Origin: Lysobacterales bacterium
GTDB taxonomy: Bacteria > Pseudomonadota > Gammaproteobacteria > Xanthomonadales > Marinicellaceae
DNA: 52,652 nucleotides
Assembly (NCBI GenBank): GCA_026982315.1
Contig: JALSHI010000061.1
Coordinates: forward strand, 83,018 to 135,669
Direction of reading: 5' to 3'
The notes under the pieces were generated by a model, which made no database searches, was not told the DNA's origin, and saw only the letters and a program-made list of their open reading frames with translations. Both the position numbers and the translations under genes were made by a program. Shown here piece by piece: positions 40,747 to 44,700 of this stretch (positions are counted from its first letter, which is position 1; each line of letters begins with the position of its first letter).

Positions 40747-41958
40747 ATGCAATTCCTTGATTTCCTTCAGAACGGCTTACTGCATTTCAGCCCGGGCCAG
40801 AAGATTCTGACTTTCCTCATTGCCACTCAAATCACGATTCTGGCCGTCACCCTTTACCTGCACCGCGAACAAACCCATCGCGGTGTGTCACTGCACCCGG
40901 TGTTACAGCACTTTTTCCGTTTCTGGCTGTGGCTGACCACCGGCATGCAAACCCGTGACTGGGTGGCGATACACCGCAAACATCACAGCCATTGCGAAAC
41001 CGAGAACGACCCGCACAGCCCCCAGTTTTATGGCATCAACCGTGTGCTGTGGGATGGCGTGGAGTTATATACCGACGAGCGCAAAAATACTGAAACCCTG
41101 GAAAAATATGGCCAGGGCACGCCGGATGACTGGCTGGAAAACAATGTCTACAGCCATTTTCGCTACTTGGGGGTTTCCCTGCTACTGCCGCTTGATTTCA
41201 TGCTGTTTGGCGTAGCCGGTATCGCCATGTGGGCGTTGCAAGTGATCTGGATTCCTTTTTTTGCCGCCGGTGTGGTCAACGGCATTGGCCATTACTGGGG
41301 CTATCGCAATTACAAAACCAATGACTGCTCCCGCAACATCACCCGTTTTGGCCTGTTTATCGGTGGCGAGGAGTTGCACAACAACCATCATGCTTTTCCG
41401 GCTTCTTGCAAATTTGCCCATAAAAAAGGCGAGTATGACCTGGGCTGGTATGCGATTCGCTTGCTGAGCTGGCTGAAGCTGGCCACCATTCGCAAGGTGG
41501 TGCCCGAACTGGTCACCAACCAGAACAAGGACTCCATCGACAAGGAAACCGTCATGGCCATTTTGACACATCGCTTTTCCGTGGCGCAAATGTACTACCA
41601 GGAAGTGGTCAAACCAGCCGTCCTGAATGAATACCGTAGCACCTCCAGAAAAATGCGCAAAACCGCGAAAAAATGCCTGGATGCCCTGTCGGTTGACTGG
41701 CGCTTTGTGGACGCCAATACCCGCGAAACCATCAGCCACTGTCTGGCCAACAACCACACCGTGGAAACAGTCCTGGCTTATCGCCAGGAGTTACAAAAAA
41801 TCTGGGAGCAAAAAGGCAAAAATGCCGAGCAAATGATTGAAGCGCTCAGAGAATGGTGCCAACGTGCCGAACAAAGTGGCATTGATACATTGCAGAATTT
41901 TGCCCAACAACTCAAAAGCATCAGCTTGAAAAACAACCAGGCACCCAGTCACTCATAA
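40747..41958 (+). CDS. Membrane acyl desaturase (delta-9 type)
   Basis: A 403-residue membrane di-iron desaturase that introduces a cis double bond in acyl-CoA or acyl-lipid. Three histidine boxes are present: H39-REQT-H44, H76-RKHH-SH82 and ELHNNHHAFP near 216-225. Membrane helices flank them. The C-terminal third (after about residue 260) is a charged helical extension without histidines, longer than in the minimal family. RBS is weak. Oxygen-dependent unsaturation complements the acyl-CoA chemistry of the reductase locus. Followed by a strong terminator. Confidence 0.9.
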   Translation: MQFLDFLQNGLLHFSPGQKILTFLIATQITILAVTLYLHREQTHRGVSLHPVLQHFFRFWLWLTTGMQTRDWVAIHRKHHSHCETENDPHSPQFYGINRVLWDGVELYTDERKNTETLEKYGQGTPDDWLENNVYSHFRYLGVSLLLPLDFMLFGVAGIAMWALQVIWIPFFAAGVVNGIGHYWGYRNYKTNDCSRNITRFGLFIGGEELHNNHHAFPASCKFAHKKGEYDLGWYAIRLLSWLKLATIRKVVPELVTNQNKDSIDKETVMAILTHRFSVAQMYYQEVVKPAVLNEYRSTSRKMRKTAKKCLDALSVDWRFVDANTRETISHCLANNHTVETVLAYRQELQKIWEQKGKNAEQMIEALREWCQRAEQSGIDTLQNFAQQLKSISLKNNQAPSHS

Positions 41959-42049: not shown

Positions 42050-43186
42050 TCACCGTACTGTCTGGCCGGGATTTCTTCCAAAAGGCGATTGCGTAAAGTA
42101 ACGCATGTCCACCGTATAGCGTTTGCGCCCCCAGTCACCGGGCTTGCCTTCGAACACACCCGCACAGGGCGTGCCACACTGTTGGCACTTGCCATCATCA
42201 GTCAAATTCCAGGCGGTGATCTCGTACCAGTCCCGGCCTATCAGCAAGGCGCCACAGTGATGACACCAGGTGGAGTCTCCCTCGGTGTTATGCACATTGC
42301 CGGTATACACATAGTGCAAGCCTTTCTCCAGAGCGATATTGCGGCATCGGATCAGGGTCTCAGGCGGTGTTGGCGGGATATCCCGCATCTTCCAGTCCGG
42401 ATGGAAGGCCGTAAAGTGCAACGGCACGTCAGGCCCCAGTTTATCCATAATCCATTCACTCATGGCATGAATTTCTTTTTCCGAATCATTATGGCCAGGG
42501 ATAATCAAAGTGGTGATTTCCAGCCAGCAGCGGGTTTCGTGGCGAATAAACTCCAGCGTATCAAGCACGTATTGCAATTTTCCACCACACAAACGGTAAT
42601 AAAAATCCTCATCAAATGACTTCAGGTCCACATTGGCCGCATCCATGTGCGTAAAAAACGCCTGGCGTGGCTTTTCAGTGATATAACCAGCGGTCACCGC
42701 CACCGATTTAATGCCCTGTTCGTGACAAGCCTGGGCCGTATCAACAGCATACTCGTGGAAAATCACCGGGTCATTATAGGTAAACGCCACGCTCCGGCAG
42801 CCGGTGGCTTGAGCCGCGCGGGCGATATCCTCCGGAAATGCTTCGGCCGTCAGCGTGTCTTGTTCGCGGGATTTGCTAATGTCCCAGTTCTGGCAAAATT
42901 TACACGCCAGATTGCAACCGGCTGTTCCAAATGACAACACCGGCGTTCCTGGCAGGAAGTGATACAGCGGTTTCTTCTCAATGGGATCAATGGCAAAACC
43001 ACTGGCCTTGCCATAAGAGGTCAAAACCACTTGCCCGCCGATATTGGCTCGCACAAAGCACAAACCACGCTGGCCTTCCTTCAGTTTGCAAAACCGCGGG
43101 CACAGGTCGCACTGCACCCGTCCATCGGCTAATTTGTGCCAGTATTTTGTTGGCACCACATGCTTGTCACTCAACTGTATGTCCAT
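42050..43186 (-). CDS. amrS: AmmeMemoRadiSam system radical SAM enzyme
   Basis: A 378-residue radical SAM protein. The iron-sulfur cysteines are C91, C95 and C98 (CNLACKFC). Extra cysteines lie at the N-terminus (C26, C29, C33, C43) and as CxxC pairs at the C-terminus (CHHCG, CQQCGTPC), likely further metal sites. It belongs to the pyruvate formate-lyase-activating-enzyme-like group found with Memo and AMMECR1 proteins. The reaction is not known. AAGGTG precedes the ATG. It diverges from the amrB-amrA pair across an intergenic region with a large palindrome. Confidence 0.93.
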   Translation of the reverse strand: MDIQLSDKHVVPTKYWHKLADGRVQCDLCPRFCKLKEGQRGLCFVRANIGGQVVLTSYGKASGFAIDPIEKKPLYHFLPGTPVLSFGTAGCNLACKFCQNWDISKSREQDTLTAEAFPEDIARAAQATGCRSVAFTYNDPVIFHEYAVDTAQACHEQGIKSVAVTAGYITEKPRQAFFTHMDAANVDLKSFDEDFYYRLCGGKLQYVLDTLEFIRHETRCWLEITTLIIPGHNDSEKEIHAMSEWIMDKLGPDVPLHFTAFHPDWKMRDIPPTPPETLIRCRNIALEKGLHYVYTGNVHNTEGDSTWCHHCGALLIGRDWYEITAWNLTDDGKCQQCGTPCAGVFEGKPGDWGRKRYTVDMRYFTQSPFGRNPGQTVR

Positions 43187-43188
43187 CG

Positions 43189-43278
43189 TGCACCTTGAAA
43201 TATCTCAAATTGAACCTTACTTCTGTTAACAGAAATAAGGTTGGCAGGTGCATAATTCAAGCCCTTCTCGCACCTGCC
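43189..43278. promoter_or_regulatory. AmmeMemoRadiSam intergenic control region with 30-bp palindrome
   Basis: 43213-43242 is a 30-bp dyad: AACCTTACTTCTGTT then AACAGAAATAAGGTT, one mismatch, centre GTTAAC. A perfect 9-bp inverted repeat GGCAGGTGC/GCACCTGCC lies at 43243-43251 and 43270-43278, and TGCACCT at 43189-43195 is a further inverted copy. On the plus strand CATAAT (43251-43256) is a good -10 whose -35 position falls in the palindrome. On the minus strand TTGAAT (43255-43260) and TATTTC (43232-43237) are 17 apart. Confidence 0.65.
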
Positions 43279-43307
43279 TGAACCCCGAACACAAGCAAGG
43301 AGAGACC

Positions 43308-44096
43308 ATGAAAGCATCTATTCGACCTGCAGCGATGGCCGGTATGTTTTATCCGGCTGATCCGCTGGAGCTGGATCGCATGATCAAGCAGCTCATCACC
43401 GAAGCCAAAACTGAAGGCGAACCACCCAAAGCCATTGTCGCGCCCCACGCCGGATATATCTATTCCGGGCCGGTGGCCGCCAGTATCTACAAGCTGTTAT
43501 TGCCCTTGCGCGGCAAGATCAAGCGGGTGGTCATTCTTGGCCCCGCCCACCGCGTGCCCTTTTTCGGCCTGGCCGTACCGAGCATGGACGCTTTCGCCAC
43601 ACCGCTGGGGCTGGCAAAACTGGACAAACCGGTCATTGAACAATTGGCCCGCCTGCCCTTTGTTCAGGTCTATGATGAAGCGCACAAGCTGGAACACAGT
43701 CTCGAAGTCCAGATTCCCTTTATTCAGGAGGTGTTGGGCGATGTACAGATAGTGCCCATCGTCATTGGCCAGGCCGACCCGGACATGGTCGCGGCCGTGA
43801 TAGAACCGTTTTTGCTGGATGATGAAACCCTGGTTGTCATCAGTTCCGATCTCAGCCATTACCATGATTACAACAGCGCCAACACCATTGACCTGATGAC
43901 CACAAAAGCCATTGAAGAATTGCGCGACGACGCCATTAGCCACGAACAGGCCTGTGGCGCCACAGGCATCCGCGGCTTGCTGAAACTGGCAAAAAAATAC
44001 GGGCTGACACCCAAAACCGTAGACTTGCGCAACTCAGGCGACACCGCTGGTGATAAAGACCGCGTAGTGGGTTATGGAGCGTATGCCTTTTATTAA
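43308..44096 (+). CDS. amrB: AmmeMemoRadiSam system protein B (Memo-like)
   Basis: A 262-residue Memo-family protein with a fold like class III extradiol dioxygenases. The motifs RPAAMAGMFYP, APHAGYIYSG, LGPAHRVPF, EHSLEVQIPF and ISSDLSHYHDY are present, including the histidines that would bind metal. Human MEMO1 is the distant relative. AAGGAG sets the start at 43308. amrA follows after 31 bases. The molecular role in bacteria is not established. Confidence 0.94.
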   Translation: MKASIRPAAMAGMFYPADPLELDRMIKQLITEAKTEGEPPKAIVAPHAGYIYSGPVAASIYKLLLPLRGKIKRVVILGPAHRVPFFGLAVPSMDAFATPLGLAKLDKPVIEQLARLPFVQVYDEAHKLEHSLEVQIPFIQEVLGDVQIVPIVIGQADPDMVAAVIEPFLLDDETLVVISSDLSHYHDYNSANTIDLMTTKAIEELRDDAISHEQACGATGIRGLLKLAKKYGLTPKTVDLRNSGDTAGDKDRVVGYGAYAFY

Positions 44097-44127: not shown

Positions 44128-44700
44128 ATGACAAGTGCACTCAGCCCCCAGGAAAAAGCCATCGCCCTCAAGCTGGCCAAAGAATCCATCCGCTATGGAC
44201 TGGAAAGCGGAAAGCCATTGCTGGTAGATATCAGCTCATTACCGGAAAACCTGCAACACACCCGCGCCTCTTTCGTCACATTGCACAAACACGGCCAGCT
44301 TCGCGGCTGCATTGGCAGCATCATTCCCACCCGGCCACTGGCGCTGGACATCAGTCACAATGCCTTTGCTGCCGCCTTTCAGGATCCGCGTTTTCCCCCT
44401 GTACAGGCCGATGAACTGGACGATCTGAACATTGAAATTTCAGTGCTTTCCATGCCAGAACCCCTCGAATTCACCTCAGAAACGGATTTGCTGGAAAAAA
44501 TCCGCCCCGGTATCGACGGGCTTATTCTCAAGGAAGGCCCCTATAGCGGCACATTTTTGCCATCTGTCTGGGAACAGATTCCCGACAAGCGCGAATTTTT
44601 ACGCCAGCTCAAGCGCAAGGCCGGCCTGCCCGCAGACTACTGGTCGCCAACCATTCGTGTGTTTCGCTATACCACGGACAGCTTTTCCCAACCGGATTGA
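44128..44700 (+). CDS. amrA: AmmeMemoRadiSam system protein A (AMMECR1-like)
   Basis: A 190-residue AMMECR1-domain protein. The family's most conserved motif LRGCIG appears at about residues 56-61, followed by the FAAAFQDPRFPP and LPSVWEQIPDKREFLRQLKRKAGL segments. It is next to amrB and has CAGGAG ahead of the ATG. The three-gene combination with amrS is the defining set of the system. No catalytic activity is known for this component. Confidence 0.94.
   Translation: MTSALSPQEKAIALKLAKESIRYGLESGKPLLVDISSLPENLQHTRASFVTLHKHGQLRGCIGSIIPTRPLALDISHNAFAAAFQDPRFPPVQADELDDLNIEISVLSMPEPLEFTSETDLLEKIRPGIDGLILKEGPYSGTFLPSVWEQIPDKREFLRQLKRKAGLPADYWSPTIRVFRYTTDSFSQPD

Follow-up and report, generated by a model that had tools for sequence, protein, structure and literature searches.

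Promoters of the heat-shock sigma factor RpoH (sigma-32) follow the consensus CTTGAAA-[N11/16]-CCCCAT in the passage of PMC545781 that sets it out, and the −35 element of Pseudomonas aeruginosa sigma-32 promoters is given as TTGAA in the corresponding part of PMC9866376. The same passage of PMC545781 describes a second heat-shock element, the palindromic HrcA/CIRCE operator, as TTAGCACTC-N9-GAGTGCTAA. Symmetric DNA is also a property of the bidirectional promoters of Escherichia coli studied by Warman, Grainger and others, in which the common distances between the two start sites are 18, 10 and 23 bp according to the sections of PMC12825309 considered here.

Here we compare with these systems a palindrome that lies between the divergent amrS and amrB–amrA genes of an AmmeMemoRadiSam set, and we conclude that it very probably consists of two sigma-32 (RpoH) promoters that overlap face to face as mirror images of each other. 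Like known sigma-32 promoters, the amr sites combine a −35 element of the form CTTGAAW with a −10 element that starts C-rich and a spacer of 13–14 bp, as in the model trained below, and their scores equal those of groES, clpB and hslV in the same genome; the outer CTTGAAA/T and the inner CCTTATTT, 14 bp apart, reproduce the consensus excerpted from PMC545781 with T for C twice. Unlike the usual sigma-32 promoters, the two face each other and overlap within one palindrome, and their −10 element, CCTTAYTT, is a T-rich variant that is also found at grpE of the genus (CCTTATTT). With the E. coli bidirectional promoters, as those sections of PMC12825309 portray them, the locus shares pseudo-symmetric DNA between divergent genes and orientations that should exclude each other, but its elements are those of sigma-32 and its −10 blocks lie 10 bp apart. 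The pseudo-symmetry and the overlapping, opposed polymerase sites are read from the bases only, and the start sites, estimated in three species with a fixed discriminator, are 2–3 nt apart rather than 18, 10 or 23 bp; the palindrome would work like a bidirectional promoter without being classed as one in the sense used in that part of PMC12825309. With HrcA/CIRCE it has in common that a palindrome stands at heat-shock genes, but the amr region holds no CIRCE sequence; CIRCE-like repeats are present at groES of some related genomes.

A two-tier palindrome between amrS and amrB–amrA

In the window, the whole 52,652-base stretch of DNA analysed, amrS on the minus strand and amrB–amrA on the plus strand are separated by a divergent gap of 121 bases (43187–43307; Table 1). 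An earlier, sequence-only reading had described in this gap a near-perfect 30-bp dyad with one mismatch, followed by a perfect 9-bp inverted repeat, and both are there as described. It had also argued that a regulator, for which no gene lies adjacent, must act in trans; in agreement, searches with 13 proteins encoded in and around amr matched no transcription regulator. Besides the amr proteins, these include a desaturase, ABC transporter parts, an M28 peptidase, cystathionine enzymes, an OmpA-type protein and a lytic transglycosylase, and two of which gave matches to domains of unknown function only, all below cut-off. The desaturase (DesA-type, acting on fatty acids; 40747–41958) has a tail domain shared with ISL3 transposases (NF049918, NF049919). 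An Rfam search of the window returned four tRNAs and nothing else.

Table 1 Features of the amr locus, in window coordinates
Feature	Position	Strand	Basis and remarks
amrS, AmmeMemoRadiSam radical SAM enzyme	42050..43186	-	TIGR04337, 5.7e-195, 647 bits, cut-off 220
Two-tier 68-bp palindrome	43194..43261	.	Outer tier 9/10, unpaired 9-bp gaps, inner tier 14/15; centre 43227/43228
Candidate sigma-32 −35, CTTGAAA	43194..43200	+	Pattern match; whole-site matrix score 19.2
Inner 30-bp dyad, as first reported	43213..43242	.	14/15 pairs (93%), centre GTTAAC
Candidate sigma-32 −10, CCTTACTT	43215..43222	+	Start ~43229, discriminator length assumed
Candidate sigma-32 −10, CCTTATTT	43233..43240	-	Start ~43226, estimated
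Hairpin, predicted amrBA mRNA leader	43243..43278	+	Arms 43243–43251 and 43270–43278; ends ~30 nt before amrB start codon
Candidate sigma-32 −35, CTTGAAT	43255..43261	-	Pattern match; whole-site matrix score 21.0
amrB, MEMO-like AmmeMemoRadiSam protein B	43308..44096	+	TIGR04336, 262 bits, cut-off 26
amrA, AMMECR1-like AmmeMemoRadiSam protein A	44128..44700	+	TIGR04335, 216 bits, cut-off 99

The 30-bp dyad is confirmed; it stands alone in the genome and is far from what chance would produce. No other gapless even palindrome in the window reaches 14/15 pairs, none of that quality arose in 3.16 Mb of Markov-1 sequence for each of two compositions, and among 105 divergent amr regions only the window has a 14/15 dyad, the runner-up reaching 12/15. 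In the 2.24-Mb genome, where further copies had been suggested as a route to a regulon, it occurs once when up to three mismatches are allowed. Around the dyad, and unremarked in the sequence-only reading, the outer arms CTTGAAATAT and ATAATTCAAG (43194–43203 and 43252–43261) pair at 9 of 10 positions about an identical centre, both coordinate sums being 86455. The 9-bp gaps between the tiers are without symmetry; in simulation, a 9/10 stretch concentric with the dyad arises within 35 offsets with a probability of about 0.0005.

We then compared three genomes of the genus (G000, G001 and G002), one species each, all of which have the amr region. Symmetry of the inner dyad across the three species is 14/15, 12/15 and 9/15, and that of the outer arms 9, 7 and 9 of 10. 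Because the inner dyad decays in the sister species and two unrelated amr regions of the 105 (L283 and L209) attain 12/15 as well, symmetry is not the best-conserved property of the locus. What the alignment of the three species keeps are the blocks CTTGAAWTAT, CCT..TT, AGAAATAAGG and a mirrored TTCAA. A DNA similarity search in the genus matched the dyad only to its own reverse complement and to the orthologous regions.

Sigma-32-like sites on both strands

The candidate amrS promoter on the minus strand is CTTGAAT-N14-CCTTATTT and the candidate amrBA promoter on the plus strand CTTGAAA-N14-CCTTACTT. Their −35 elements equal the consensus CTTGAAA on the plus strand and depart from it by the final T on the minus strand; their −10 elements, at a 14-bp spacing inside the 11–16 bp range, agree in a degenerate form only, at 5/7 (CCTTATTT) and 4/7 (CCTTACTT) of the fixed positions of CCCCATNT, which falls within the trained matrix. 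The minus-strand elements TTGAAT and TATTTC had already been placed correctly in the sequence-only reading.

Both sites were scored with a two-block matrix trained on 67 of 88 upstream regions of groES, clpB and hslV (30, 28 and 30, respectively, from 33 genomes) and on no amr sequence. The 88 exclude matches without loci and those that fell short of the clpB cut-off, and CIRCE-bearing groES upstreams and sequences shorter than 100 bases were dropped from training; an earlier matrix that included groES of the CIRCE type was replaced because sigma-70-like sites had leaked into it. The core of the trained matrix is CTTGAAA-N13/14-CCCCATaTa. Neither window score, 19.2 on the plus strand and 21.0 on the minus strand, was reached by any of 300 shuffles, and the sister regions scored 19.4 and 15.0 (L083) and 19.7 and 20.2 (L084) on the two strands; the low value of 15.0 belongs to the minus-strand site of G001 (shuffle p 0.017), whose −35 is ATTGAAA. 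A matrix trained without the genus gave the window 19.2 (plus) and 20.1 (minus), and gave five of six heat-shock upstreams of the genus 18.3–22.2. The exception was hslV of G001, with 7.8; the groES upstream of G002 did not have the length needed for scoring. A score of 19.2 was attained by 1 of 311 control upstreams, taken from the exploratory loci described below and the window, and the likeness of the amr sites to heat-shock promoters of the same genome thus exceeds that of control upstreams.

Despite the decay of the palindrome, high-scoring sigma-32 sites occupy both strands in all three species. The minus-strand −10 is invariant in the genus at 8/8 columns, the only fully invariant block, and the −35 elements are invariant at 6/7 columns on the plus strand (CTTGAAA) and 5/7 on the minus strand (CTTGAAT). 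Two patterns, both designed with the amr sites already in view, place these sites among heat-shock promoters genome-wide. TTGAAWN{13,15}CCYYAYTT matched the 2.24-Mb genome five times (reversed control, 0), before grpE, clpB, an FKBP isomerase and amr on both strands. CTTGAAWN{13,14}CCYYAYNT gave 15 matches in the three genomes of the genus (reversed control, 0), before FKBP isomerase (3), grpE (2), dnaK (2), groES (2), hsp20 (1), yfdX (2) and amr (3), so that 10 of the 15 precede grpE, dnaK, groES, hsp20 or FKBP isomerase; downstream genes were identified by Pfam on seven representatives and, for one groES, by place. This second pattern misses the amr region of G001 altogether and the plus-strand site of G002. 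The yfdX matches put a sigma-32-like promoter before the gene for a YfdX-family protein (PF10938) in G000 and G002, two of the three genomes (L298 and L301). The sigma factor itself is encoded in all three, where rpoH (TIGR02392) is above cut-off, with 403.9 bits against a cut-off of 323.1 in the genome of the window.

Since the two halves of the palindrome read as sigma-32 promoters in mirror image, RpoH, and not a dedicated repressor, is the most likely trans-acting regulator, and the most economical account would be that RpoH drives transcription of both amr units out of a single palindromic stretch. RNA polymerase carrying RpoH would bind in one orientation to the plus-strand elements (−35 at 43194–43200, −10 at 43215–43222), starting near 43229 towards amrBA, and in the opposite orientation to the minus-strand elements (−35 at 43261–43255, −10 at 43240–43233), starting near 43226 towards amrS. 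As the two polymerase sites overlap almost completely, binding should be mutually exclusive, by analogy with the bidirectional promoters covered in those sections of PMC12825309. The palindrome would then be a two-way polymerase loading point, used as RpoH rises with heat or misfolded protein, and heat induction of both amrS and amrBA is predicted.

The 9-bp inverted repeat is probably a feature separate from the palindrome, forming a hairpin in the amrBA leader. Its arms pair in 26 of 27 cells across the three species, with two pairs changed on both sides and further G·U pairs on the plus strand, and slid controls are 33–48% paired; letter shuffles reached those counts in 56 of 500 cases, there being only three sequences, and the covariation is no more than suggestive. 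In each of the three species, the two arms are also base-paired in the fold predicted for the amrBA leader. Since the hairpin needs a start upstream of 43243, it agrees with a sigma-32 start near 43229 but not with the CATAAT −10 that had been proposed for the plus strand, a transcript from which would be without the left arm; CATAAT is CATTTT or CATATT in the sister species, and its sigma-70 score lies within shuffles (p 0.17). The amrBA transcript would begin about 14 nt before the hairpin, which may protect or tune the mRNA. Pairing of the Shine–Dalgarno sequence is inconsistent across the folds of the three species, and we make no claim of an RNA thermometer.

Other explanations of the symmetry

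Promoter elements cover 8 of the 15 inner-arm positions, and the sigma-32 reading leaves unexplained an AA at the edge and the central symmetry CTGTT/AACAG, which decay in G002. One explanation is that the palindrome is largely mutational, a product of template switching between imperfect arms over a single amrS promoter, with the plus-strand site incidental. Consistent with this, four differences separate G000 from G001 in the inner left arm, three of which, whichever way the change went, make G000 more symmetric and one less, and the one fully invariant block belongs to the minus strand. Such an origin is nevertheless unlikely, given that the plus-strand site scores 19.2, 19.4 and 19.7 in the three species although its sequence has changed, and that the outer arms are largely symmetric throughout.

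The sequence-only reading had favoured a dedicated regulator that binds the palindrome, that is, an operator for a dimeric or tetrameric transcription factor that co-regulates both units and could coexist with the promoters. A 14/15 dyad with concentric outer arms is indeed very improbable by chance, and 7 of 15 inner-arm positions are symmetric though they lie outside the −10 block. We consider an operator decidedly unlikely, however, as its half-sites are neither conserved at the orthologues, where the palindrome falls to 12/15 and 9/15, nor repeated in a regulon: within three mismatches it occurs in the genome only once, DNA similarity in the genus leads only to the orthologous regions, and outside the window's own region nothing among the 105 rises above the 12/15 of the two unrelated loci. 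No transcription regulator was found among the neighbours searched, and the blocks that are conserved are explained by the sigma-32 reading. The bases outside −35 and −10 at which the operator reading can be put to the test are the central CTGTTAACAG. FNR-like, CueR, SoxR, BirA and LexA sites, compared by eye, were rejected, their half-sites being misfits or not conserved.

A sigma-70 bidirectional promoter, either a symmetric TTGAAW-N17-TAYTTC or TTAACA-N19-CATAAT on the plus strand, is very improbable, for although bidirectional promoters are ubiquitous in prokaryotes by the account in those sections of PMC12825309 and TTGAAW has TTGA in common with the sigma-70 −35, the best scores (from a matrix of base frequencies) lie within single-base shuffles in three species and on both strands (p 0.08–0.53), the −10 TATTTC is without the final T, and the sigma-32 score is exceptional, with genome-wide matches mostly at heat-shock genes.

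Recurrence in the class and meaning for AmmeMemoRadiSam

The AmmeMemoRadiSam set is widespread in the class of the window, with amrB in 184 of 369 genomes sampled. AmrS is patchy among 61 order-level genomes, with at least 67% identity only in the genus (3), in G036 and, as a partial match, in G023, and with 22–26% identity in the remaining matches; gain by transfer is possible.

Sigma-32-like sites recur at a minority of amr loci. Our exploratory list comprised 44 of 45 divergent amr regions, with the window and its two sisters included and the window's own duplicate, L001, removed. At shuffle p <0.05, 19 of the 44 have a plus-strand site and 16 a minus-strand site (16/41 and 13/41 without the three regions of the genus), and 12/77 amrS and 8/49 amrB exploratory upstreams exceed the 99% quantile of controls. 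That quantile, 13.42 in the first control set (140-base windows), served unchanged as the threshold for a fresh set, whose own control 99% quantile is 14.1. The fresh loci came from among the matches listed in a class-wide amrB scan (30 loci and 59 chosen stretches, one per family); three duplicates of the exploratory set were dropped, the remaining genomes are not all new, the contigs of L285 and of the exploratory L042 being equally long, and some may also be training genomes, an overlap of heat-shock genes only. Starts of amr genes were extrapolated from tblastn and those of control genes were mechanical longest-ORF calls, so that some windows may include coding DNA. Above the threshold were 20/86 amrB and 15/63 amrS upstreams and 2/125 controls (one-sided Fisher, 3.8e-7 and 1.6e-6, respectively), and 15/86 and 10/63 exceeded even the top control at 14.4.

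Counted with one genome per family, 14/66 amrB and 10/49 amrS upstreams pass the threshold; at least one amr gene does so in 20/66 families and neither in 46/66, and 37/61 fresh divergent regions are without any such site. Most amr loci have no site over the threshold. A miss is weak evidence, because the threshold also misses many heat-shock upstreams: with a 190-base window and the family held out, it recovers 11/28 groES (CIRCE types included), 19/28 clpB and 8/30 hslV.

Sites scoring at least 11 on both strands are found in 26 of the 105 divergent regions, 21 of them back to back and five face to face. The five are the three of the genus, L261, and L002 from a Methylothermaceae MAG, whose AmrS is the best match of the AmrS scan (75% identity); overlap of this face-to-face kind is largely confined to the genus. 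Among the back-to-back regions, a conserved CTTGAAA-N14-GCACATTGT stands before amrB in L006, L010, L012 and L013, whose hosts are two Sulfuricaulis MAGs, a Muproteobacteria MAG and another gammaproteobacterial MAG. Symmetric elements resembling TATACT/AGTATA were seen by eye in several amr regions, among them L018, L041, L043 and L073, and are perhaps sigma-70 bidirectional promoters.

The MEMO-like and AMMECR1-like proteins of AmmeMemoRadiSam have human homologues, and to our knowledge no function of the set has been established. 'Memo-Ammecr1 systems' with a radical-SAM domain are named in the relevant part of PMC7159879. In the literature searched, AMMECR1 and RpoH appear nowhere in one paper; the titles and opening lines of abstracts that join AMMECR1 with 'heat shock' show no bacterial RpoH topic, and the term is absent from the available main text of the AmmeMemoRadiSam papers examined. 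'Bidirectional promoter' and RpoH do co-occur, judged by term match only.

The early idea that the regulator would be a clue to function gains support with RpoH as the likely candidate. The recurrent sigma-32 promoter sets AmmeMemoRadiSam beside DnaK, GrpE, GroES, ClpB and Hsp20, and its putative membership of the sigma-32 regulon hints at a part in the response to misfolded or damaged protein. We regard it as an even question whether the set is a regular member of that regulon across the Gammaproteobacteria, serving stress repair with a joint start of both units that is achieved here through the palindrome. If true, the amr geometry would be a sigma-32 case of the two-way promoter, and the link to sigma-32 makes a role for AmmeMemoRadiSam testable by exposing cells that have or lack amr to heat or to protein misfolding.
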